This document shows positions 45,037-60,647 of a stretch of 64,000 nucleotides of DNA, piece by piece. The notes below the pieces were generated by a model. That model saw only the letters and a program-made list of their open reading frames with translations. It searched no databases and was not told where the DNA came from. How positions within the stretch are numbered: position 1 is the stretch's first letter; the number at the start of each line of letters is the position of its first letter. Source of the stretch: Corynebacterium macginleyi (GTDB taxonomy: Bacteria; Actinomycetota; Actinomycetes; Mycobacteriales; Mycobacteriaceae); contig NZ_REGE01000006.1 in assembly GCF_003688935.1 (NCBI RefSeq), positions 1 through 64,000 of the forward strand, written 5' to 3'. The position numbers and the translations under genes were made by a program.

Positions 45037-45936
45037 ATGCCTGATATTAAAGACGACGACCTTCCTGAGATTGACCTTGCAAAAACCGACGGTTTCGTCG
45101 TTGATGCAACGGATGAGGATGATCCCTCGCTGATTTTGCCGGATGGCTCTCCGGTCGAGACGTGGCGCGAAAATTTTCCTTATGAAGAGCGCATGTCTCG
45201 CAATGAATACGAGTCTATTAAGCGTGCACTTCAAATTGAGCTATTGAAGTGGCAGAACTGGACTAAGGAAACTGGCCAGCGCCACATTATTCTATTTGAA
45301 GGCCGCGATGCTGCTGGCAAGGGAGGTACCATCAAGCGCTTTAATGAGCACTTGAACCCGCGCGGTGCACGTACCATTGCGTTGGAAAAGCCGTCTCCAC
45401 GCGAGTCTACCTCCTGGTATTTCCAGCGCTATGTGGAGCACTTTCCGGCCGCGGGTGAAATCGTGTTCTTTGACCGTTCATGGTACAACCGCTCCGGCGT
45501 CGAGCGGGTCATGGGTTTTTGCACCGAGTCCCAGCACGCGGAGTTCCTGCGCGAGGTGCCGATGTTGGAAAATATGATTTTGGGATCGGGTATTTCGCTA
45601 ACCAAGTTGTGGTTTTCTGTTACCCGGAAGGAACAGCGAACGCGCTTTGCTATCCGCCAGATTGACCCGGTCCGCCAGTGGAAGCTTTCGCCGATGGATT
45701 TGGCGTCCCTGGATAAGTGGGACGACTACACGCGTGCGAAGGAAGAGCAGTTCCGTTATACGGATACTGAAGAATCGCCGTGGATTACCATTAAGTCCAA
45801 TGATAAGAAGCGAGCCCGTGTCAACGCGATGCGCTACGTTCTGTCCAAGTTCGAATACACCAATAAAGATTATGACGTGGTAGGCGAGCCTGACGGGAAC
45901 ATCGTCAAGCGTGGTCGCGATCAGATTGGAGATTAG
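45037..45936 (+). CDS. ppk2: Polyphosphate kinase 2
   Basis: PPK2 transfers phosphate between polyphosphate and nucleotides (GDP or ADP). The 299-residue protein has the Walker A-like IILFEGRDAAGKGGTIKRFN, the family segment NPRGARTIALEKPSPRES, and the lid/Walker B region FFDRSWYNRSGVERVMGF. An acidic N-terminal extension of about 50 residues precedes the core. Size matches class I PPK2 of C. glutamicum. No clear Shine-Dalgarno precedes the ATG. The gene stands alone between accessory regions. Confidence 0.95.
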   Translation: MPDIKDDDLPEIDLAKTDGFVVDATDEDDPSLILPDGSPVETWRENFPYEERMSRNEYESIKRALQIELLKWQNWTKETGQRHIILFEGRDAAGKGGTIKRFNEHLNPRGARTIALEKPSPRESTSWYFQRYVEHFPAAGEIVFFDRSWYNRSGVERVMGFCTESQHAEFLREVPMLENMILGSGISLTKLWFSVTRKEQRTRFAIRQIDPVRQWKLSPMDLASLDKWDDYTRAKEEQFRYTDTEESPWITIKSNDKKRARVNAMRYVLSKFEYTNKDYDVVGEPDGNIVKRGRDQIGD

Positions 45937-46252: not shown

Positions 46253-46496
46253 GGGTGGTGGGGCATTGGCAGGATTTCGTCCACAAGCCCTCCTGCTAGT
46301 TGATTTATGACTGGCGCTTTTTAGGTGTCATGACCTGAGATGTGAACACACTGATGGTATTCACGGCTGTTTTTTAAAAAAATGCCAGTTATAAGACAAA
46401 AACGCTTGAATTTCATTCCTTGGGAAACTACTATCAAGGTGACCTGAATTCATTCAATCAGTATGTGTGATGCAAAATACTATAAGGAGTACTAGC

Positions 46497-47645
46497 ATGA
46501 TCAGGAAGAAGCTTTGTGTCCTGGCCACCGCGACCGCTGTATCCATGGCGCCTATCGCAGCGTCGGGAACCCTGAGTGCTACCGCCTTCGCGGGCGGCGG
46601 CCACCCAGCAGCAGTAGTACCGGCAGAAAAGCTTGACGTGCTCGGTCGCTCGACCATTTCCGATAAGCAGATCGCCGACGAAGACGGCTACTTCGATAGC
46701 AACGACGGCCACGGCGTCAAGATCTACTACCGCAAGCAGCTAGTACTCAACCCACGTGGCAACGTCGTGTTGGCACACGGAGTGTCTGAGCATTCCGGAC
46801 GTTATGACTATGTGGCTAAGCGTTTATTGGACGCCGGTTACAATGTGTATCGCGTGGATCACCGCGGGCACGGAAAGTCTGCGTCCGGCAGTACGCCGTT
46901 GGGACACATCGATAACTTCCAGTTTGTCCTCAATGACTTTGACCGCGTTGTCGACATGGCCAAGGGTGAGAACCCCAACGTGAAGACCTTCCTATTGGGT
47001 CACTCCATGGGTGCGCTGGCTGTTCAGGCATATGGCATTCGTCAGCCTGGCAAAGTTGATGGAATCATCACCAATGGCGGTGGTGCGCCGTTGAATCTCT
47101 CCGGTAAGAAGGCAGCCGGACAGTTCATCACGCCGCAGGAGATTTCTCAGGTACAAAGAGAGCTCAGGCCCACCTTGTTCGAGCGCCTGCCGTTGGCGGA
47201 TATCACCAGCTTCAACGCCAACTATGCGCAGAACCTGATCCCGCACCGCACCCACATTGGTGCGCAGTCGCCGGAGCTTAGCAAGTTGATCATGCTCCCC
47301 AACCCCTTCACGGACGGTATCTCTACCATCCAGGCCGTGAAAGATGAATACGCTACTAGCCCACTCATCGCACAAAAAACCAGCGCTGGTACCGCGCTGC
47401 AGCTGGGTGCTATTGCTACCTACAATGCCGTGAACGCGGACCTATTTAATGCGCCGACGCTGATCATGCACGGCACGAAGGACGGCATCGTTCCCCCATA
47501 CTTCTCCCAGGACTGGTACAACTCCATTTCCTCTCAGGATGTGGAATACATCAACTGGGTAGGCCAGAAGCACGAGGTCTTCAACGAGCCAGCCGCTGAC
47601 CAGGCCCTTGACACCGTGGTTAACTGGCTAGACCGCCACGTGTAA
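46497..47645 (+). CDS. Secreted alpha/beta hydrolase (monoacylglycerol lipase/serine aminopeptidase S33 type)
   Basis: From ATG 46497 (RBS aaggag) the product is 382 residues with a Sec signal peptide (MIRKKLCVLATATAVSMAPI, ending in A-T-A-F-A before G-G-G). The catalytic triad is visible: Ser in LLGHSMGALA, Asp in MHGTKDGIVPP and His in GQKHEVFNEP. The oxyanion region is VVLAHGVSEHSGRYDYVA, typical of monoacylglycerol lipases. It probably releases fatty acids from host lipids outside the cell, which would suit a lipid-dependent skin organism; this is inference. A stem-loop follows at 47684. Confidence 0.88.
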   Translation: MIRKKLCVLATATAVSMAPIAASGTLSATAFAGGGHPAAVVPAEKLDVLGRSTISDKQIADEDGYFDSNDGHGVKIYYRKQLVLNPRGNVVLAHGVSEHSGRYDYVAKRLLDAGYNVYRVDHRGHGKSASGSTPLGHIDNFQFVLNDFDRVVDMAKGENPNVKTFLLGHSMGALAVQAYGIRQPGKVDGIITNGGGAPLNLSGKKAAGQFITPQEISQVQRELRPTLFERLPLADITSFNANYAQNLIPHRTHIGAQSPELSKLIMLPNPFTDGISTIQAVKDEYATSPLIAQKTSAGTALQLGAIATYNAVNADLFNAPTLIMHGTKDGIVPPYFSQDWYNSISSQDVEYINWVGQKHEVFNEPAADQALDTVVNWLDRHV

Positions 47646-48049: not shown

Positions 48050-51000
48050 CTATCCCCACGGTTCGATGGGGTTGCCTTGCCAGGTGGCGTTGGCCGGGAC
48101 GCGGTCACCGCGCATGACTAGCGAACCAGGGCCCACGGTGCTGGACTCACCAATAAGTGAGGCGGGTAGTGCCACTGAGTGGGAGGCGAGCGTGGCGCCG
48201 GCTGCAATGGTCACGGTATCCAGGCTCATCACGCGGTCCTGGAATAAGTGGGTCTGAACCACGGTGCCTGGGCCCACGGAGGCGCCGGCACCGACGTGGC
48301 AGAGATCGGTTTCTGGGAACCAGTAGGAATCGATCCAAGCGCCCTTGCCGATGTCCACCCCCAGCCCCCTCAAGCCCAAGTTGATCTCTCCGGTGCCGTA
48401 GGTGTGTTGGAAGAACCACGGGGCGGCGACGACCTCCACAAAGGTGTCTTGTAACTCGTTGAGCCAGACGAAGGTGCTCCATAGCGGGTGGTCGGCTGTA
48501 CTGTGCGTACCCACGCAGATCCACTTCACTGCGATGGTCACCGCCATGGCGATAGCGCCCATTGTCATGAGCACGAGGCCGGAAAGGACCCAGGTGGTAA
48601 GGAAGCCGACATCGGCAAGCAGGTAATACAGCGTCCCCAGGGTGGCCGCGAGTAGCATGGCCGAGAACATCGGCGCGAGCAGGCGCATGGTTTCTACCAC
48701 GCCGCGGGCGGCCTTGACCTTGAATCCGGGGTTATAGGTCAGGGCCTCGGCGGACTCGGCGGGGGCATCGATCTGCGCGGTAACGCGCCGCATGCGCTCT
48801 GGCGGGGATCCCCACCAGTTGGCGCCGGACGTGGTCTTCTTCGGCGTGGAGGACAGCACGGCGACCAACGAGTTCTTGGAAAGCTTGCGTCCAGGGGCGG
48901 TAATGCCGGAGTTGCCTACGAAAGAACGCTTGCCCACCTTAGCCTCGCCGGAGTGGATCCAACCGCCGCCGAGCTCGTAGCCGCCGATCATGGTGTCATC
49001 AGCAAGAAAGGCACCGTCTTTGATGTCCGTGAACGCAGGGATCATCACCGCGGTGGAAATCTCCACGTCCTTGCCAATGCGCGCGCCCAGAGCACGCAGC
49101 CACCGTGGGGTGAGTTGCGAGGCGTAGAGCGGGAAGAGCTGCGTGCGAGCCTCATCCATGAGACGCTCAATGGCCCACAGGCGCCAGCCGGCGGCAGATC
49201 GCACTGGGTTTACGCCGGGCGAGATGCCGATGGATAATACGCGCACTCCCAGCCAGGTCTGCAGCATGTAGGTGGCAAAGGCAACCAGGGCCGCAAAAGG
49301 AGCGAAGAGCACCGCGCCGATGAAGCGGTTGCCCGAGATGAAATGCACCAGCGCCAAATCCACGATGGCACCGATAAGCAGCGCGATGAGCGGCTGCGCG
49401 GCCAGGAAGAGGGAGGTCGCACCGTAAATAGCCACCCACCAGGGACGCCGCTTCGGCGGCTTGGAGGGGAAGCGGTGTTTGGAGCGGCCCACCTTCTTGG
49501 CAGGCGAGCCGGACCAGCGCTGACCATCCTTGATTTTCTTGCGGCCGGTGACGGTAGAACCCGCCTCCACGTGAGCATATTTTCCCACCACGGTGCCGGG
49601 GAGCAGGGTGGAGCGTGCACCCACCCGGGCGCCTTCCTTGATATCGATGGCACCGACGTGGAGCACGTCGCCGTCTAGCCAGTAGCCGGTGAGATCGACC
49701 TCTGGCTCCACCGCAGCTTGCTTGCCCAGGGTGAGCAGCCCCGTTACCGGCGGCAGCGAGTGAAGATCGACACCGCGCTTCATCTTCACACCCAAGGCGC
49801 GGGCATAGTTATTGACCCAAGTGGCGCCGGCGATAGAGCGCGAACCCGAGGCGTCGGCCCACCGCTCCGCGGCCCAAATCCGCAGGTGGGTTGAGCCACC
49901 GCGCGGGTAATCGCCGGGGGTAATGCCGGCGGTAATGAGGCGTGCGCCAAAGCCACCGATGGGAATGCGCCCCAGCGGCGTGGCAAAGATGAGGACCAGC
50001 GCGATGGACAACCACCACGGGAAAGATTGTGCCCAGCCCACACCCAAGGTAGAGGCCACGGTCGATCCCAGCATGAGCCAGGCCAGCCAACTGGTGGCCG
50101 CCAGGGTCATGGCCGGGATCTGTAGCAGCGTCTGGGCCACGCGGGTCTTAGCGCCCACCGGGGAGACCTCGCGCAGCGGTTCCTGTTGCTCCGCCTCAGG
50201 GCGCGGTTCGGCGCCGGCGATAAGTTCCGCCAAGGAACCTAGCCGCGGGTGATCATAGAGATCGCGCACGGCCACCGTGGGGTAGCGAGTGCGGATGTGG
50301 CCCACTAGCGTTGCCGCGGCCAGGGAGGTGCCGCCGAGGTCAAAGAAATCGGCGTTCTCATCTTCCACGGATACACCGAGGGTTTCGACCCAGAGCTCGG
50401 CAAGCCACTTTTCAGTCTTTGTCAGCGTGGACGATTCCACCCCGACGCCGGGCAGCGGCCACGGCAACGCCTTCTTATCCACCTTGCCGGAGGTACGCAC
50501 CGGCAGCTCATCCATCACGCAGATGCGAGGGACCAGCGCCGCAGGCATGGTTTCCGCCAGCCGCGCGTGGGCGACACCATGGTTAAAACCGCGCGCCTCA
50601 TCGTCCAAAGAAACGTAGCCCACCAGCACGGATTCGCCGCCGGGGGTCTTTTGCACGGCCACGGCAGAGTTATAAACATTATCCAGCGCGGCGACGTTCG
50701 CCTCGACCTCGCCCAGCTCAATGCGGCGCCCGCCAATCTTTACCTGGTCATCCACCCGGCCTACGAAGTACAAGCCGTCTTCTTCTAGGCGCACGTGGTC
50801 ACCGGTGCGGTAGGCGCGCTGCCAGCCCATGGCTTTAAGCGGCGCGTATTTTTCCGCATCCTTCTGCGGATCCAGGTAACTGGCCAGGCCCACGCCACCG
50901 ATGACCAATTCGCCGGTCTCGCCCAGGCCAACGGGTTGCCCCTGCTTATCGATGACCACCAGGTCCCACCCATTCAACGGCAACCCAATCGATACCGCGC

Positions 51001-51958
51001 GCCCCGGAATCATCCGTTGCGCGCAGGCGACGACCGTCGCCTCCGTGGGGCCGTAGGTATTCCACATCTCACGGTCCTCGGTGGCTAGGCGGTCCACCAA
51101 TTCCTGGGAGCAGGCCTCGCCGCCGACGATGAGCAGACGGATATTATCCAACGCTTCCGCCGGCCACAGGCCCGCCAGAGTAGGAACCGTGGAGACGACG
51201 GTGATATCGCGGCGAATCAGCCACGGTCCGAGGTCCATGCCGGATCGCACCAAGGAACGCGGGGCCGGAACCAGGCACCCGCCGTGACCCCAGGCCAGCC
51301 ACATTTCCTCGCAGGAGGCGTCGAAAGCAACGGAGAGTCCGGCCAGCACGCGGTCTTCGGGGCCGAGCGGGCCGTGGGGATGATCGATGAGAAAGAGACC
51401 AGCCTCCGCGTCCACGAAGGCGGCCGCCGAGCGGTGGCTCACGGCTACGCCCTTGGGCTTGCCCGTGGATCCAGAGGTAAAGATAATCCACGCGATGTCC
51501 TCAGGCTGTGGGGCTTCTATCTCCTCGGCTGTGGGGCGAGGGGTCTCGCGCAGGAAGCGGAAGCCGTCATCGCTAAAAAGACCATCGATATCGGCTTCAT
51601 CAAAAACCATTTCCGCGCGTTCATCCGGATCGTCCGCGTCTACTGGTACATAGGCTGCACCGACGGCCAGGGTGGAGAGGATGGCGAGGTAAAGATCCCG
51701 CTTGCCGGAGGTCATCCGGATGCCGATGCGATCGCCACGGCGCACGCCGTTGGCGTGCAGCTCCGCTGACCACGCCTGGACCTCGTGGATGAGTTCGGCG
51801 TAGGTGATAACTTCGCCATCGTCAAGCGCGGCGGCTTCCGGGTGAATCTCAGCGGTGGTGGTAATGATGTCCCACAACGTGCGCGGGCGCGGGGCCAGAT
51901 CGCGCAGGAGGTACTGGGGTGGAGTACTGGGACTGCTACACTCTTCGGGTTCGTCCAT
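48050..51958 (-). CDS. Pls/PosA-type single-module nonribosomal peptide synthetase (poly-amino-acid synthetase-like)
   Basis: The 1302-residue membrane enzyme has the architecture of epsilon-poly-L-lysine synthetase. An adenylation domain covers about 25-505 (A3 IIFTSGSTGKPKG, A4 FDASCEEMW, A5 NTYGPTE, A7 YRTGD, A10 TSGKVDK with Lys492). A carrier domain covers about 512-582 (FFDLGGTSL, phosphopantetheine Ser545). Six membrane segments lie near 614-632, 645-663, 843-866, 878-900, 1095-1117 and 1120-1145. They separate three left-handed beta-helix acyltransferase-like domains (about 765-825, 955-1055, 1190-1302). There is no condensation or thioesterase domain. The specificity positions read D-A-E-S-I-G-T-V-V-K, close to the lysine code. 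The start lies two bases from the MarR stop. Confidence 0.9.
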   Translation of the reverse strand: MDEPEECSSPSTPPQYLLRDLAPRPRTLWDIITTTAEIHPEAAALDDGEVITYAELIHEVQAWSAELHANGVRRGDRIGIRMTSGKRDLYLAILSTLAVGAAYVPVDADDPDERAEMVFDEADIDGLFSDDGFRFLRETPRPTAEEIEAPQPEDIAWIIFTSGSTGKPKGVAVSHRSAAAFVDAEAGLFLIDHPHGPLGPEDRVLAGLSVAFDASCEEMWLAWGHGGCLVPAPRSLVRSGMDLGPWLIRRDITVVSTVPTLAGLWPAEALDNIRLLIVGGEACSQELVDRLATEDREMWNTYGPTEATVVACAQRMIPGRAVSIGLPLNGWDLVVIDKQGQPVGLGETGELVIGGVGLASYLDPQKDAEKYAPLKAMGWQRAYRTGDHVRLEEDGLYFVGRVDDQVKIGGRRIELGEVEANVAALDNVYNSAVAVQKTPGGESVLVGYVSLDDEARGFNHGVAHARLAETMPAALVPRICVMDELPVRTSGKVDKKALPWPLPGVGVESSTLTKTEKWLAELWVETLGVSVEDENADFFDLGGTSLAAATLVGHIRTRYPTVAVRDLYDHPRLGSLAELIAGAEPRPEAEQQEPLREVSPVGAKTRVAQTLLQIPAMTLAATSWLAWLMLGSTVASTLGVGWAQSFPWWLSIALVLIFATPLGRIPIGGFGARLITAGITPGDYPRGGSTHLRIWAAERWADASGSRSIAGATWVNNYARALGVKMKRGVDLHSLPPVTGLLTLGKQAAVEPEVDLTGYWLDGDVLHVGAIDIKEGARVGARSTLLPGTVVGKYAHVEAGSTVTGRKKIKDGQRWSGSPAKKVGRSKHRFPSKPPKRRPWWVAIYGATSLFLAAQPLIALLIGAIVDLALVHFISGNRFIGAVLFAPFAALVAFATYMLQTWLGVRVLSIGISPGVNPVRSAAGWRLWAIERLMDEARTQLFPLYASQLTPRWLRALGARIGKDVEISTAVMIPAFTDIKDGAFLADDTMIGGYELGGGWIHSGEAKVGKRSFVGNSGITAPGRKLSKNSLVAVLSSTPKKTTSGANWWGSPPERMRRVTAQIDAPAESAEALTYNPGFKVKAARGVVETMRLLAPMFSAMLLAATLGTLYYLLADVGFLTTWVLSGLVLMTMGAIAMAVTIAVKWICVGTHSTADHPLWSTFVWLNELQDTFVEVVAAPWFFQHTYGTGEINLGLRGLGVDIGKGAWIDSYWFPETDLCHVGAGASVGPGTVVQTHLFQDRVMSLDTVTIAAGATLASHSVALPASLIGESSTVGPGSLVMRGDRVPANATWQGNPIEPWG

Positions 51959-51960
51959 TC

Positions 51961-52419
51961 CTATACCTCGTCCTCGTCCGCAGCGATAATGGCTTTGGCC
52001 AGCTTACGCAGGTGTTTGAGCTGCTTATTGGTGGATACGTCGAGCGCCTCATCCTCGGCGGAGGCGACGAGTTCTGCCAGATCCTTATGGGTCTTGGTGC
52101 CCTTTTTGGTGCACGCCACGATTTGGCGGCGGCGGTCCTTGGGATCGCGCTCGCGCTTGGCCCAACCGCGGTCCTCGAGGGCATCAATAAGCCGCACCAT
52201 ATCGGAGGCGTCAATGGCCAAAGTTTCAGACAGAAAGGATTGTGAGGCGGCATCCGCCTCGACGAGACAGGTAAGCACCCAGAACTCGCGGATCGTCGTC
52301 TGCTTGGTCTGCAGGGCTAGCTCGACGCCATCCCGGGTGCGGCGGCGCAGGCGCTCTAATTGGAAGGACGGGGATTCGAGCAGGGAGGTAGGTATGCCAG
52401 AAGTATTAGTTGAAGACAT
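51961..52419 (-). CDS. MarR-family transcriptional regulator
   Basis: A winged-helix regulator of 152 residues. The DNA-binding core is TIREFWVLTCLVEADAASQS followed by ETLAIDASDMVRLIDALEDR and wing residues DPKDRRRQIVACTKKGTKTH. Flanking helices provide dimerisation. It is immediately upstream of the Pls-type synthetase gene (2-base gap), so it almost certainly shares its transcript and is the likely regulator, possibly responding to the product or a phenolic ligand. Confidence 0.9.
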   Translation of the reverse strand: MSSTNTSGIPTSLLESPSFQLERLRRRTRDGVELALQTKQTTIREFWVLTCLVEADAASQSFLSETLAIDASDMVRLIDALEDRGWAKRERDPKDRRRQIVACTKKGTKTHKDLAELVASAEDEALDVSTNKQLKHLRKLAKAIIAADEDEV

Positions 52420-52456
52420 ACCATCATCATAATCTTAAAAGATGGGTAAAGGCCAA

Positions 52457-52753
52457 TTAATTACGGATAACGGGCAGGCCATCCGCCTCCCACTGGCTGG
52501 TTCCGCCCTCGACATTAAACGCGTTCCACCCCAGAGCGTGCTCCAGGTATTGGCATACCTGCGCGCTACGTCCGCCCGAGTGGCAAATGACGTAAATATC
52601 GCGGTCCGGGTCGATTTCCTGGATGCGATCATTTATCTCACTCATGGGAATATGGGTGGCACCCTGCGCGTGCACGGTGGCCCACTCGTCGTTTTCGCGC
52701 ACATCGATAAGCTGCGCGCCTGCTGGAACTTCCGTGGGTTGTACTTTTTCCAT
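52457..52753 (-). CDS. Rhodanese-like domain protein
   Basis: A single-domain sulfurtransferase-type protein of 98 residues. It has GAQLIDVRENDEWATVHAQGATHIPM and the active-site loop VICHSGGRSAQVCQYL with catalytic Cys. It may act as a sulfur carrier or in stress response; no partner gene is linked. It lies 37 bases upstream of marR and 24 bases downstream of the response regulator in the same direction. Confidence 0.9.
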   Translation of the reverse strand: MEKVQPTEVPAGAQLIDVRENDEWATVHAQGATHIPMSEINDRIQEIDPDRDIYVICHSGGRSAQVCQYLEHALGWNAFNVEGGTSQWEADGLPVIRN

Positions 52754-54937: not shown

Positions 54938-56334
54938 GCACCGCGACCCTAGTCTTCGGTCTCCAGCGCGAATCCATCCGCGCCCGCTCCGGCGCGGGCA
55001 TCGTCAGCGTGCTCGCCATCGTGAGCCTGACGCTGGGCTCCGCCATCGCCTTCCTCGTCGCCGGCGGCACCTGGATGTTCTGGCAGCGCGCCCACCACCC
55101 AGAATCTGCCGTGCCCGCCCTGCGTGCGGCCGCCGGCGAAACCCCGGAGAATTACTTCATGCCCTGGTTCGTCCTCGCGCTCACGGCCTGCGCGTTTATC
55201 GTTCCCGCACTGTTTAACCTGACCGCGCAGGCCGCCGTCCTCGGCGCCTCCGGCCGGGAACAGCGCCTGTCCACCCTCCGCCTGCTGGGCCTAAGCTCCC
55301 ACCAAGTTGAGCGCATGGCCGCCGTCGAGACCGGCATCCAAGCGCTCATCGGCATCGTGCTGGGCTGGCTCATCAGCGTGCTTATCGCCCCTGTCTTCAC
55401 GCACGTAAAATTCCAGGACCGCCCCGTCGCCTTCGAAGAAATCATCCTGCCCTGGTGGGGATACCTCGCGGTGGCTGCGTGCCTCTTCCTCCTTGCCCTT
55501 GCCGCGGCGCTTGCCGGCATGCGGCGCGTGCGCGTTAGCCCCCTCGGCGTGGCTAAACGCCAGATGCCTGCCGCCTTTAGGTGGTGGCGCCTTATCGCCT
55601 TCCTCCTCATCGTTACCATCGGTGGTGTCCTGCTCAAAGGTCAATCCGGCACCCCCGAAATCTCCGTGGCCGTCGTACTCTTCGCGGTGGTCATGAGCAT
55701 CAACCTCGTCGCGCCCTACCTTCTGCAAACTGGTGCCCGCCTTTTGGCTTTGCTCCCCGGCACCGCACACCTCGTGGCCTGTCAGCGAGTCAACTCCAAT
55801 GCCCGCCGCGCCTGGCGGCAAAGTGCAGCCATCGGCTTCTTCGGCTTCCTCGCCGGCTTCCTCATGGGCGCGCCCATGGGTACCGACGCCCTGGCTACCG
55901 CTCTGAAGGAAGAACAAGAAACGGGCATCATGTTCCGGGATGTGTCCACCGGCGCCATCCTGACCTTGCTCTTCGGCTTCGCTTTGACCAGCATGTCCAT
56001 CTTCTTAGGCCAAGTATCGTCCGCCTTCGAAGACAAGGAACTCATCCGCTCCCTCGACCTGATGGGCGTGCCGCGCCGCTTCCAACTCCGCACGAACGCC
56101 CTCGCCGTGATGGGTCCCATCGTCGCGCTCAGCGTCTTCGGCTTCCTCTTCGGCGGTGGCATCGCCGGGCTGATGTTCTTGAGCATCGTCTGGGACGAAG
56201 GCGTTGACCTCGCCGGGCGGCTCCTCATTTCCTTCAGCTTCCTCGCCGTGGGCTGGGCAGTGACCTTCCTTGCCATCGCGCTCGTCGAGCCCCTGCGCGG
56301 CCACGTTCTCCGGAATGGACGTCGCAAGGAATAG
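54934..56334 (+). CDS. FtsX-like ABC transporter permease
   Basis: A 466-residue membrane protein with two FtsX-type halves. Hydrophobic segments include VLAIVSLTLGSAIAFLVAGG, WFVLALTACAFIVPALFNL, GYLAVAACLFLLALAAALAG and three near the C-terminus (FGFALTSMSIFL, VALSVFGFLFGGGIAGLMFL, FSFLAVGWAVTFLAIALVEP). The cytoplasmic coupling motif is EQRLSTLRLLGLSSHQVERM. In the first half the motif RRVRVSPLGVAKRQ marks the family. Such single-permease systems next to two-component genes often export antimicrobial peptides or drugs; this is inferred. Confidence 0.9.
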   Translation: MSTATLVFGLQRESIRARSGAGIVSVLAIVSLTLGSAIAFLVAGGTWMFWQRAHHPESAVPALRAAAGETPENYFMPWFVLALTACAFIVPALFNLTAQAAVLGASGREQRLSTLRLLGLSSHQVERMAAVETGIQALIGIVLGWLISVLIAPVFTHVKFQDRPVAFEEIILPWWGYLAVAACLFLLALAAALAGMRRVRVSPLGVAKRQMPAAFRWWRLIAFLLIVTIGGVLLKGQSGTPEISVAVVLFAVVMSINLVAPYLLQTGARLLALLPGTAHLVACQRVNSNARRAWRQSAAIGFFGFLAGFLMGAPMGTDALATALKEEQETGIMFRDVSTGAILTLLFGFALTSMSIFLGQVSSAFEDKELIRSLDLMGVPRRFQLRTNALAVMGPIVALSVFGFLFGGGIAGLMFLSIVWDEGVDLAGRLLISFSFLAVGWAVTFLAIALVEPLRGHVLRNGRRKE

Positions 56335-56519
56335 CTGGTCACCGGCGTCTGCGCTGGGTCTTGTCTTGGGCAGTGCTTTCCTGCACTTCGCCCGCCTTAG
56401 ACCCGGCCTTGGTCCTAGCCCAGGCTCTGGCCCGGCTAGGCCTGTTTCGGGCTTTGCACTGGTCAGCTGTTGCGTCGGCTCTTGCTCTAGTGCCGTGCGA
56501 CTGTTGTGCTGGCCTTGCT

Positions 56520-57350
56520 CTAGTGCTGTGCGCCTTCATTCCGCCACAAGCGGTGCCATTGCCACGGCGGCCGCGCAAAGGGCCGTTTATTCTTTGCCGT
56601 GGCTTTTATCTGCTGCACCACGAAATCAGGGTAGTAGTCGATCGTCGTCGCGGTGAAGTGGAGGGGTTTCCAGCCGCGATGCACGGCATCGTTAAGCTTG
56701 TGGCGATCCACTTCAAACTGGCGACGGTTTTCTCCCCGGTGGTAAGCGTAACCATCGACCTCGATAGCAATCTTGTGCTCTTTAATAATCAAATCCCAGT
56801 GGTAGGGACCTATTTTTATATTGTTCTGGACCGTGAAATGCGGTGCGAGGGCGCGCGTTAACTGGCGCTCTGGCACGCTATCGGTGCCGATAATTGCCCT
56901 GTCCAAGGCACGTTTTACCGACTGTGGAAACCGCTGGTAGTCTAGCTTATTCAGCTCTAGCCGGCTGACCCCGTCCTTGCCGGAGTAGAAGTCCTCGAGG
57001 AAGGCGACGGCGTCATCCTCCCGCATTGCTTCGACCGCCTGCAGTGGATTGCATACGGTTACCCCGTCCCAGGTCAACGCGCCTTTCGGCCGAGCACGGC
57101 GCGAAGTGAAGTATTTACTAGACGGCAGCGATGAACTGCGCAGAAACTCTAGCGGAAAGCGCAGTGGCTTATCCACGTGCTTGAGAGCGGCCGAGTAGCC
57201 GTCGAGCGCACAATCCGGCCATTGCTCGCTCATGATGCGCGCGAGTTGGTTCGGCGTCGGCTCCTCTGACAGGCAGAAGCCGTTCGCAATCCGGACGGCT
57301 CCCCGGCGTACAGCCTGCTGAGCGGCACTCTTCCCCCGAAAAATTTCCAT
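56520..57350 (-). CDS. DUF559-like endonuclease-fold protein
   Basis: From ATG 57350 the product is 276 residues (the frame opens at 57494). The N-terminal half has a type-IV abortive-infection-like/helical arrangement seen in many actinobacterial DUF559 proteins (AVRRGAVRIANGFCLSEE, CNPLQAVEAMREDDAVAFLE). The C-terminal VSR/PD-(D/E)xK-like fold contains PYHWDLIIKEHKIAIEVDGY followed by FEVDRHKLND. The D…E-V-D pattern is the probable catalytic site. The role is unknown; related proteins are common and not tied to one system. Confidence 0.75.
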   Translation of the reverse strand: MEIFRGKSAAQQAVRRGAVRIANGFCLSEEPTPNQLARIMSEQWPDCALDGYSAALKHVDKPLRFPLEFLRSSSLPSSKYFTSRRARPKGALTWDGVTVCNPLQAVEAMREDDAVAFLEDFYSGKDGVSRLELNKLDYQRFPQSVKRALDRAIIGTDSVPERQLTRALAPHFTVQNNIKIGPYHWDLIIKEHKIAIEVDGYAYHRGENRRQFEVDRHKLNDAVHRGWKPLHFTATTIDYYPDFVVQQIKATAKNKRPFARPPWQWHRLWRNEGAQH

Positions 57351-57736
57351 TCGTATCCCTTGATCCCCCGAAACGAAGGTTGTGTGGCGGTGGGCTTCAG
57401 TGCTTGGGTGCTGTTGGGTGTTTGGGCGGCTTGTTCTTAAGGTGATGTGGTCCGATTCAACCTCGGATGGTGCTTGTTTGATGCGTTTTAACAAATAGTG
57501 GCCGCGAATACCATGGTTTCAGCCGCCTATTTACGAAAACGCATCAGATAGCCGCCCCGCAGTCCAGCCAACCGCTACAACGGGCAAGCCAGCCGTTACA
57601 ACAGGCCGACTGGCCGCCCCGCAGGCTAGCCAGCCACCACAACAGGCCAGCTGGCCGCGAACCCGCGCGGCCAGGCAGCTCCGCAGGCCCCGTAAACCCC
57701 AAAAACCCGCCGCAATTCCCAGACAACGGCCGCGGC
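57351..57736. other. Intergenic region with GC-rich imperfect repeats
   Basis: Between the DUF559-like gene and ppa. From about 57545 to 57700 related strings recur: ccgccccgcag twice, cagccaaccgctacaac / cagccgttacaac / cagccaccacaac, and caggccgactgg / caggccagctgg. They form an imperfect tandem array of roughly 20-60-base units without a gene. Function is unknown. Confidence 0.45.
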
Positions 57737-58210
57737 CTACTTCAGGCGCGCCTTGGCCTCTTCCAAAATCTTCTCGGCCTCGGCCTTGTTGCCCCAGCCG
57801 GAGCCGGAAACTTCCTTGTTGGGCTCGAGGTCTTTGTAGTGGACAAAGAAGTGCTCGACTTCGTCCTTGATGTGCTGTTCCACATCGTCGATGTCCTGGT
57901 AGCGATCCCAGCGTGGGTCATCGATGACGGCGAGCAGCTTATCGTCGCCACCAGCTTCATCGGTCATCTTGAACACACCGACGATGCGGGCCTCAACGAT
58001 GACACCAGGGAAAACGGGCTCGGGGAGGATGACAAGGGCGTCGAGAGGGTCGCCGTCTTCGCCCAGCGTGTGGTCGATGAAACCGTAGTTGGCCGGGTAG
58101 GCCATTGGTGTGAACAGGTAGCGGTCCAGGTAGACCTTGCCGGACTCGTGGTCCACCTCGTACTTATTGCGAGAGCCCTTTGGGATTTCAATGGTTACTT
58201 CAATGCTCAC
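57737..58210 (-). CDS. ppa: Inorganic pyrophosphatase
   Basis: Hydrolyses pyrophosphate from biosynthetic reactions. From GTG 58210 (RBS ggagg, 9 bases) the product is 157 residues, the usual size for actinobacterial family I enzymes. It contains [40 protein letters not shown] (metal-binding Asp cluster, D-G-D-P-L-D) and [18 protein letters not shown]. The 326-residue open frame is antisense to dacB upstream of this point and is rejected. Divergent from dacB. Confidence 0.95.
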
Positions 58211-58292
58211 AGTGATGTCCTCCATGTGGAATTGGGTATTAATTACTGTCAATAGTCTAGCGCGTCGCCCTTCCGCGCTAGGGTTAGTGGCG

Positions 58293-59579
58293 ATGAAAGC
58301 AAAGAAGGTTTGGTGGTCAGTAACCGCGCTGGTGGTCACGGTGGTGGTCGGAGGTACGGCTGCGCTGGGGGTTGCCATCCAGCGTGAGTACAGCGATCTT
58401 TCGCATGGCGAGGCCGAAACGGTGCAAGCCCCGGAAAATCCCCTGCAGCCGGCCCAGGCGCAGGATGTGGACTTAGCTGCGCTTAGTGAAAAGCTCGATG
58501 AGCTGGGAAAGAACGAGGGTTTGGCTAACTTTGGCGGGCAGGTCATCGATAGTGAGACCGGCACGGTGGTCTGGGGGAAGGATGCGGATAAGGCACTGAT
58601 CCCGGCATCGTCGACGAAGGTTTTGACCACGGCCGCGGCAACGTTGGCCCTGGATGAGTCACACCGGATTACCACCAAGGTATACCGTGGTAAGGACCCG
58701 AAAAACGTGGTGATCAAGGCGGCTGGCGATGTCTGGATGACTAACGAGCAGCTCGATGACCTGGCGGATCAAATTGAAAAGACCGGCACCCAGGTGGAGG
58801 GCGTGTATGTTGACACCTCCGCGTGGGCGGGCGAACCGCAGGCGCCGGGTTGGGATCCGGGGAATGTGAATGAGGGCTTTGTCGCGCCTATGGAACCGGC
58901 GATGCTGTACGGCGGGCGCATTGGCGCTACGAAGGGCGATGTTCCGCGCAGCCACACCCCAGCCCTGGATGTCGCGGGTGAGCTGGCCAAGCGGCTGGGC
59001 ACGGGTACATTCGCCGCGGGTACGGTGACGGACGGCGCGGAGGAGCTGGCTAGCGTCGAGTCGGCTCCCCTGAGCGAGCGTGCGTTGGAGATGATGAGGC
59101 ATTCCGATAACGTCATGGCGGAGGCAATTGCCCGCGAGCTTGCCGATGCCCGCGGCAAACAGCCCAGCTTCCTGACCAGCACCCAAGCCACACTCGATGT
59201 GCTGCGCGAGCACAGATTCGATGTGAGCGGCGTGGATATCAAAGACAATTCGGGTCTCTCGGTAGATAACCGGTTGAGCGCGAGCGTGCTGGCGGAGGTT
59301 GTAAACGGTGCGGTCAAGGATCCCCAGCTGCGACCCCTGGCGGCATATTTACCGGTAGCGGGTGGGGATGGCACGCTGCACGGGCGCTACGGGGAGTCTG
59401 CGGCGCGCGGTTTTGTTCGGGCGAAGACCGGCACGTTGACAGGCGTTTCTGCGTTGGCGGGCACCGCGCAAGGCCAATCCGGGCGCGTCTATGCCTTTGC
59501 TTTTGTGGTCAATGATGGTGAAATTTTATCGGCGCGCGCGGCCCAAGATGACCTAGCCGCGGCGCTGCACGAGTTCTAA
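58293..59579 (+). CDS. dacB: D-alanyl-D-alanine carboxypeptidase/endopeptidase (PBP4, class C)
   Basis: Low-molecular-weight penicillin-binding protein that trims or cleaves peptidoglycan cross-links. From ATG 58293 the 428-residue product has a membrane anchor/signal segment ([20 protein letters not shown]). The S13 active-site motifs are SxxK in [13 protein letters not shown], SxN in [15 protein letters not shown] and KTG in RAKTGTLTG. The open frame upstream to 58137 overlaps ppa on the other strand and is rejected. GTG 58287 is an alternative start. tilS begins at the base after the stop. Confidence 0.93.
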
Positions 59580-60647
59580 ATGAGCCCACAGCCTGTAGTA
59601 ATGCCATTTTGGCCGCGGGTCTCGCCGCATTTTCTAGCGTGTCGGCGGGCAGTCCGTGCGGCGCAGATGGACCCCACCGTTGCGGTGGGGCTATCCGGTG
59701 GGGCCGATTCCTTGGCGCTGTGCGCGGCGATGATCGCGGAGGGCCATGACGTGATAGCACTATGCGTGGATCACAGCCTGCAGGATGGCTCGCGTGAACA
59801 GGCCGAAAAGGCTGCTAGGCAAGCGGAGAGCTTGGGCGCGCAGGCACGGGTACTAGCAGTACAAGTGCCGAAGGACAGGGGAAAGTCGATGGAAGCGGTG
59901 GCTCGGCACGAGCGCTACGTAGCGATGGCCATGGCTGTGGCCGCGTGGGAACAGCGCGAGAACGCAGCCTCGCGCCGGGCTGAGATGTGCGAGCAAGACA
60001 CAGAGCTTGGGGAGGCTGCGCGCGAGAAATCCGCGCGTGGTAAACGCGGTAAAGGAGGTCCGTTGGAGATTGCCTTGGCACATACCGCCGATGACCAGGC
60101 GGAAACGCTTCTCCTGGGTGCTCTGCGCGGCCGAGTGGCGGGCATGCCGGAGCGGGCAGTGGTGGAAGGTGCCCGGGTAGTGCGCCCGTTTTTACAGGTG
60201 CGCCGTGCAAATACGGTGGGCGCGTGTGCAGAGCTGGGTTTGGAGGTATGGCACGACCCGCATAATGCGGATACGGATTTTCGCCGGGTAGCGCTGCGCC
60301 GCGAGATTATTCCGGAGCTGTCGCGGGTCATTGGCGGCGATGCGGTGCCGGCACTAGCGCAGGCGGCGATGGATACCGCGCGCGATGAAGAATACCTCGC
60401 CACGGCGGCCACCGCGGACTGTGCGGAATTGGCCGCGCTGCCGGAGCCGCGACGCCGACGCGCTATTGCGGCCTGGCTCATCGAGCAGGGAGTGAAGGTG
60501 ACGAAGGAGGGGATTGGGGGCATCGGCAAGCTGTGTACCGACTGGCACGGACAAGGGCCGGTGGCTGTGAGTTCGGCGCGACAGGCGGGGCAGAGGTTGG
60601 AAGTAGCACGTATAGGTGGCAAACTGGCACTATTGTCTGGTCATTAA
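59580..60647 (+). CDS. tilS: tRNA(Ile)-lysidine synthetase
   Basis: Converts the wobble cytidine of tRNA-Ile(CAU) to lysidine, an essential modification. The 355-residue protein has the PP-loop VGLSGGADSLALCAAMI, the following IALCVDHSLQDGSREQAEK, and the conserved LAHTADDQAETLLLGALRGR then VVRPFLQVRR. An insertion of about 30 charged residues (RREMCEQDTELGEAAREK region) lies before the TADDQAE motif. The start follows the dacB stop directly (TAAATG). Confidence 0.94.
   Translation: MSPQPVVMPFWPRVSPHFLACRRAVRAAQMDPTVAVGLSGGADSLALCAAMIAEGHDVIALCVDHSLQDGSREQAEKAARQAESLGAQARVLAVQVPKDRGKSMEAVARHERYVAMAMAVAAWEQRENAASRRAEMCEQDTELGEAAREKSARGKRGKGGPLEIALAHTADDQAETLLLGALRGRVAGMPERAVVEGARVVRPFLQVRRANTVGACAELGLEVWHDPHNADTDFRRVALRREIIPELSRVIGGDAVPALAQAAMDTARDEEYLATAATADCAELAALPEPRRRRAIAAWLIEQGVKVTKEGIGGIGKLCTDWHGQGPVAVSSARQAGQRLEVARIGGKLALLSGH

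Follow-up and report, generated by a model that had tools for sequence, protein, structure and literature searches.

A predicted epsilon-poly-L-lysine synthetase gene of Corynebacterium macginleyi, its MarR-family neighbour and an unlinked PldII-type peptidase

Results

The 64,000-nucleotide stretch of Corynebacterium macginleyi DNA considered here (contig NZ_REGE01000006.1, positions 1 to 64,000; hereafter the window) carries on its minus strand a gene, pls, for a predicted epsilon-poly-L-lysine synthetase of the Pls/PosA family. Two genes precede it, one for a rhodanese-like protein and one, marR, for a MarR-family regulator, giving the order rhodanese, marR, pls (Table 1). The explanation of this locus that we consider highly probable as a whole is that a lysine-specific Pls makes epsilon-poly-L-lysine, an antimicrobial polymer, that MarR serves as its off-switch, and that a PldII-type peptidase encoded on another contig of the same genome protects the cell.

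The pls open reading frame starts with ATG and runs for 1302 amino acids with zero internal stops, and is thus intact. A sequence-only reading of this DNA had described a Pls/PosA-type synthetase with an adenylation domain, a carrier serine at position 545, and neither a condensation nor a thioesterase domain, and each of these points was borne out. TIGR02353 (Pls/PosA family non-ribosomal peptide synthetase) matches residues 607 to 1298 over its full length (profile positions 1 to 695 of 695) with 762 bits against a cut-off of 423, and a family profile search places an amino acid adenylation domain at residues 52 to 433. Pfam returned AMP-binding, PP-binding (517 to 580) and Hexapep in the product and nothing else; no condensation or thioesterase family was found there at E <= 0.001. 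The phosphopantetheine serine of the carrier, Ser545, lies within LGGTSL and is encoded at 50324-50326. An adenylation domain followed by a carrier and a Pls/PosA terminal domain, with neither a condensation nor a thioesterase domain, is the architecture of epsilon-poly-L-lysine synthetases. The same reading had counted six membrane helices and three beta-helix acyltransferase-like domains, and these counts are less firm. A hydropathy scan gave 7 partly overlapping peaks between residues 650 and 1142, which are compatible with about six helices but do not fix the number. The three acyltransferase-like domains rest on TIGR02353 and on published descriptions of Pls; one Hexapep stretch passes in Pfam. 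A PHROGs search added nothing useful.

The substrate specificity code of the adenylation domain, re-derived from the ten residues listed in Table 1, is DAESIGTVVK, just as it had been read before. In a pairwise alignment it is identical at 10 of 10 positions to the code of the Streptomyces albulus poly-lysine synthetase adenylation domain (7wew), so that the lysine-like specificity first proposed from an 8 of 10 agreement with the general lysine code now has a closer match. The two adenylation domains share 303 of 489 aligned residues (62%), and 7wew is the best of the solved relatives (613 bits; the runner-up reaches 364). The code DAESIGTVVK recurs in 102 of 122 aligned proteins, including all 33 close relatives of the window protein (L010 to L042). 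The ten positions were picked with GrsA position numbers. The published PosA numbering (D217, M218, E221, H260, N280, T304, V312, S313) agrees in spacing with the pls code to within one residue (PMC10522769).

An alternative is that the substrate of the window enzyme is a different diamino acid, whether ornithine, diaminobutyrate, diaminopropionate or beta-lysine, and its product the corresponding homopolymer. All of these homopolymers are made within the Pls/PosA family, adenylation-domain codes are imperfect predictors, and PosA itself uses lysine weakly yet polymerizes only ornithine (PMC10522769). However, code position 2 tracks side-chain length in this family, being Phe for diaminopropionate and diaminobutyrate, Met for ornithine and Ala for lysine (PMC10522769), and in the window protein it is Ala214: neither the Phe of the poly-diaminopropionate and poly-diaminobutyrate synthetases nor the Met of the PosA-type code DMEHNGTVSK is present. 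The window code also differs from DGESISVVNK, that of epsilon-poly-beta-lysine synthetase (PMC10522769), and 7wew, whose ten residues it shares, falls on the same side as the window protein in an adenylation-domain tree of 59 rows. We therefore rejected a non-lysine substrate on the pocket and regard this alternative as very improbable; the earlier suggestion that the product might be made from a different diamine, or be a capped amino acid, finds no support for this enzyme. Because all ten pocket residues are those of 7wew and position 2 is Ala, it is very likely that the window Pls activates L-lysine. Its predicted product is, very likely again, epsilon-poly-L-lysine, a prediction that rests on the pocket and on the Pls of Corynebacterium variabile, which Jiang and colleagues showed in 2021 to yield epsilon-poly-L-lysine of 26 to 35 residues when expressed in S. 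coelicolor (PMC8117764).

Table 1. Features of the pls locus, in window coordinates
Feature	Position	Strand	Basis and remarks
pls, predicted epsilon-poly-L-lysine synthetase, Pls/PosA family	48050..51958	-	Open reading frame; TIGR02353; 7wew match of 613 bits; code as in 7wew
AMP-binding part of the adenylation domain, residues 34-359	50882..51859	-	PF00501; pocket residues D213, A214, E217, S256, I277, G279, T301, V309 and V310, with K492 further on
Carrier domain, residues 517-580	50219..50410	-	PF00550
Membrane and tandem acyltransferase-like terminal domain, residues 607-1298	48065..50140	-	TIGR02353
marR, MarR-family regulator, 152 amino acids, proposed repressor of marR-pls	51961..52419	-	PF01047; upstream of pls on the same strand in 33/33 related loci
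Palindrome ATTGG-CCTTTA-CCCAT, 16 bp, proposed MarR operator	52442..52457	-	Strict pattern; 38 to 23 nucleotides before the marR ATG
TATGAT, possible -10 box	52426..52431	-	By eye; ends 7 nucleotides before the marR ATG
Rhodanese-like protein, 98 amino acids, first gene of the conserved trio	52457..52753	-	PF00581; upstream on the same strand and in the same order in 33/33 related loci
PPK2 polyphosphate kinase, convergent neighbour downstream of pls	45037..45936	+	PF03976, TIGR03707; 30/33 related loci

The surroundings of pls were compared with 33 related loci, 32 of them recorded under Corynebacterium and one (L033) under Mycobacteriaceae bacterium. The gene upstream of pls encodes a MarR winged-helix domain (PF01047, 47.5 bits against a cut-off of 24.6), and both it and the rhodanese gene keep their places throughout the set (Table 1). 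In the window, 2 nucleotides separate the marR stop codon from the pls ATG, and with the window counted in, the gap is at most 8 nucleotides in 26 of 34 loci. Upstream of marR lies a palindrome whose strict pattern, RTKGG-N6-CCMAY, occurs 38 or 54 to 56 nucleotides before the marR ATG in 25 of the 33 related loci, with 2 other matches in the 752,752 bp of the same loci. Its halves tend to covary, TTGG with CCAA and TGGG with CCCA as judged by eye (the window site is mixed, TTGG with CCCA), as would be expected of a dimer site. A -10-like hexamer ends about 6 to 7 nucleotides before the marR ATG in many of these sites, again by eye, pointing to a transcript without a leader and to a promoter spanned by the palindrome. 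These features are consistent with autorepression through the palindrome, by which MarR would control a transcript shared by marR and pls.

Several observations weigh against this part of the explanation. A good number of the 33 loci are closely related, and counts over them are therefore not independent. The marR-pls gap exceeds 8 nucleotides in 8 of 34 loci (L029, L030, L031, L034, L035, L036, L037 and L039). The strict palindrome is missing in 8 of the 33; L024, L029, L030, L031 and L036 have a looser form, and L034, L037 and L039 match neither form. That L034 also has a divergent MarR (39% identical) speaks, however, in favour of the switch. Because the pattern was derived from the very upstream regions in which it was then counted, the figure of 25 of 33 is descriptive only, and the 2 other matches serve as its control. 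Mononucleotide-shuffled versions of the loci contained 14.25 matches on average, so that outside its place upstream of marR the pattern is rarer than in shuffled sequence. A pattern-free dyad scan upstream of marR in 19 representatives was only weakly above shuffles (mean best score 4.0 versus 3.58, standard deviation 0.14), but the best of 300 shuffles also reached 4.0, and the scan carries no weight as evidence.

It has also to be asked whether marR is a mere neighbour that controls rhodanese or other genes, while pls is either transcribed from a promoter of its own or not expressed. The rhodanese gene is as constant upstream as marR is, the wider marR-pls gaps include one of more than 1 kb in L037, and a cysteine (motif LTC) kept in 33 of 34 MarR proteins, lost in the divergent L034, may point to redox sensing that has nothing to do with the polymer. 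On the other hand, marR stops within 8 nucleotides of the pls start in most loci, as given above, and the palindrome stays by marR in the loci where rhodanese ends some 530 to 700 nucleotides off (L020, L021, L022, L035 and L042). A search of the flanks of 47 pls loci outside Corynebacterium, spanning up to 10 kb and less in some, turned up no marR homologue; marR is thus no general feature of the family, a point that can be argued either way. On balance we hold a mere-neighbour role for marR to be possible but rather unlikely, and prefer repression of marR-pls by MarR. The conserved cysteine together with the upstream rhodanese gene could mean that MarR senses sulfur or redox state. The palindrome pattern has a second, unrelated match in the window at 2858-2873 (GTGGGTAATATCCCAC). 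No palindrome of this kind was seen by eye at pldII, and the strict pattern has 0 matches in L130, L133 to L142 and L143.

The third component, a peptidase of the PldII type, was sought with a profile built from 7 pls-linked PldII-type peptidases. In the window genome (G000) this profile has one strong match, on contig C34 (534 bits); the next two are larger M1 proteins at 126 and 124 bits. The C34 protein keeps HEXXH-X18-E. Its gene (L143:7956-9149) lies 39 nucleotides behind an esterase-family gene (L143:6591-7916, PF00756), whose product looks secreted and is perhaps a mycolyltransferase.

In Streptomyces, pls and pldII are adjacent (PMC9223678), whereas in the window no pldII-type gene adjoins pls, and adjacency is best seen as customary in the family but not required of its members. 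The two genes lie on different contigs in the window genome and abut in G084, G203, G019 and G233. Among 47 pls loci outside Corynebacterium, 8 were inspected, and in 7 of these a PldII-like peptidase gene overlaps or directly follows pls; in the eighth, L045, no such gene was identified at the pls end. Six of those seven peptidases were checked, and all are Peptidase_M1.

Across 242 genomes of the genus Corynebacterium, a synthetase was called present at a best TIGR02353 E-value below 1e-50, which holds for 184 genomes, 182 of them also passing the curated cut-off. Synthetase and PldII-type peptidase are inherited together: 178 genomes have both, 57 have neither, 6 have the synthetase only and 1 the peptidase only. 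Five of the six synthetase-only genomes (G059, G066, G089, G162 and G163) hold only a second type of synthetase, Pls2, described below; the sixth, G204, has the window type (Pls1) and is, like the peptidase-only G236, 77% complete. When 101 genomes were searched by type, 78 had a synthetase, and 74 of these had the window type along with the peptidase. An rpoB tree was built for 30 genomes, of which 13 have both and 17 neither; the joint state has to change 9 times on it, and well supported branches force at least 8 of those changes. Two of the 17 "neither" genomes, G059 and G066, carry Pls2 only, and none of the 30 is discordant if Pls1 is what is counted.

These data bear on whether synthetase and peptidase co-occur through shared ancestry alone, without a joint function. 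The genomes of one genus are related, and Fisher's test on the 242-genome table ignores that relatedness and is not relied on; moreover, the Corynebacterium peptidase gene sits behind an esterase gene, not behind pls, and its product may have another substrate. Speaking for a joint function are the repeated changes of the joint state on the rpoB tree, the lack of the peptidase in the five Pls2-only genomes, and the presence of the same peptidase type at the pls end in most of the non-Corynebacterium loci inspected. The 30 tree genomes were hand-picked to hold both states, so the comparison with tree shuffles says nothing about the genus. Two further points tell against a protective peptidase paired with this synthetase. 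Individual checks of the synthetase type covered 101 genomes in one round and 10 in another, out of the 242 (184 with a synthetase), and the C34 protein is without an evident signal or membrane stretch. Since S. albulus PldII is described as lying outside the membrane (PMC9223678), protection may differ in Corynebacterium. Shared ancestry alone nevertheless strikes us as an unlikely account, and we favour a peptidase that serves the polymer-making cell.

Pls2 is also encoded in the window genome, by an intact gene on contig C10 (L009:9411-13355; 1314 amino acids) whose product is 44% identical to the window Pls. The Pls2 clade stands separate in the adenylation-domain tree with a support of 100/100, and its codes are DAESIGTVIK, DAESIGTIIK and, in one protein, DAESIGSVIK; one further protein ends before most of the code. 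In 16 of 19 Pls2 loci (L146, the same place as L145, being counted once), the Pls2 gene is followed directly, on its own strand, by one for an HGSNAT-like acyltransferase (PF07786); the locus of the window genome is among these, and there the acyltransferase gene begins 23 nucleotides behind Pls2 (L009:13379-14737). The other three loci (L108, L114 and L116) are interrupted or at a contig edge. At the search cut-offs used, the 33 window-type loci yielded no homologue of this acyltransferase. The acyltransferase pairing and the absence of PldII from the five Pls2-only genomes raise the possibility of a capped polymer. In a scheme of two systems, MarR-gated Pls1 would secrete free epsilon-poly-lysine and would not be kept without PldII, while Pls2 would work with its membrane acyltransferase, which would cap the amino groups, to give an acylated, non-toxic, envelope-bound poly-lysine that needs no PldII; we put this forward as speculation that is doubtful as it stands. 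In G015, contig C1 bears two equal-scoring Pls2 copies (55823-59722 and 141722-145621), 70% identical to the Pls2 of the window genome; with one window-type synthetase besides, that genome has three synthetases.

Discussion

The pathway that we propose for the window locus would run as follows. Pls would activate L-lysine and load it onto its own carrier at Ser545, and its membrane domain would polymerize the lysine into epsilon-poly-L-lysine, which would be exported. MarR would bind the conserved promoter palindrome and keep marR-pls off until some signal releases it. The PldII-type M1 peptidase, encoded on the other contig, would cut polymer that stays in the cell or returns to it.

The enzyme itself is of a known kind, to which the window pls adds one further member, given the product of C. 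variabile Pls, the gene clusters already reported and the 182 positive genomes among the 242. Of 12 cheese and skin isolates of Corynebacterium, 10 had a pls gene (PMC8117764). A NAPAA cluster, its predicted product named as epsilon-poly-L-lysine, is common to most of the skin isolates of one study (PMC12542688), 102 NAPAA clusters were counted over 161 genomes (PMC12188740), and Corynebacterium striatum carries one (PMC10486106). These antiSMASH clusters of skin and respiratory corynebacteria form a class that already holds such genes; marR, the palindrome, the PldII pairing and Pls2 are not described in the available excerpts of the same three papers. In the literature searched we did not find the marR-palindrome unit, the co-occurrence of synthetase and PldII, or Pls2 with an acyltransferase partner. 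Among the matches listed, no title concerned MarR with pls in corynebacteria, and the available excerpts of PMC8117764 do not report a synthetase-PldII pairing in Corynebacterium. For polylysine, acetyltransferase and Corynebacterium, the titles and the listed parts of the abstracts contained no Pls2-acyltransferase system.

Comparison with individual systems places the window Pls closest to that of S. albulus, with which it shares the architecture and the pocket; unlike it, the window gene has marR in front and no pldII directly behind. C. variabile DSM 44702 Pls, compared here by its published description, comes from the same genus and has the same domain architecture (PMC8117764), whereas the window gene has marR before it and no adjoining peptidase. 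PosA, the delta-poly-L-ornithine synthetase of Acinetobacter baumannii, belongs to the same family and likewise has Asp at code position 1 and Glu at position 3, but the window protein has Ala for Met at position 2 and Ser, Ile and Val for His, Asn and Ser at positions 4, 5 and 9 (PMC10522769).

One published result weighs against production of the polymer by such corynebacteria: epsilon-poly-L-lysine was undetectable from C. variabile itself and from Corynebacterium glutamicum with its pls (PMC8117764). A missing trigger has been suggested for this silence (PMC8117764). The marR-palindrome unit would offer a direct handle on the silence of pls in culture, through removal of marR or through its ligand. 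That the synthetase and an unlinked PldII are present or absent together suggests that a polymer-making corynebacterium needs the peptidase, and Pls2 with its acyltransferase is a candidate source of a modified polymer. If it is true that skin corynebacteria make epsilon-poly-L-lysine in place, the polymer may shape the skin community.

Downstream of pls, an alpha/beta hydrolase gene at 46467-47645 was considered as a counterpart of PldII and rejected, as it encodes a Hydrolase_4 protein and the PldII-type M1 peptidase sits on contig C34. The position of the convergent PPK2 gene prompts the thought, and only that, of an ATP supplier to Pls. In G075, G089 and L035 (Corynebacterium minutissimum 1941), the synthetase match is frame-split or shortened, which may reflect ongoing loss of the gene in some species or else assembly errors.

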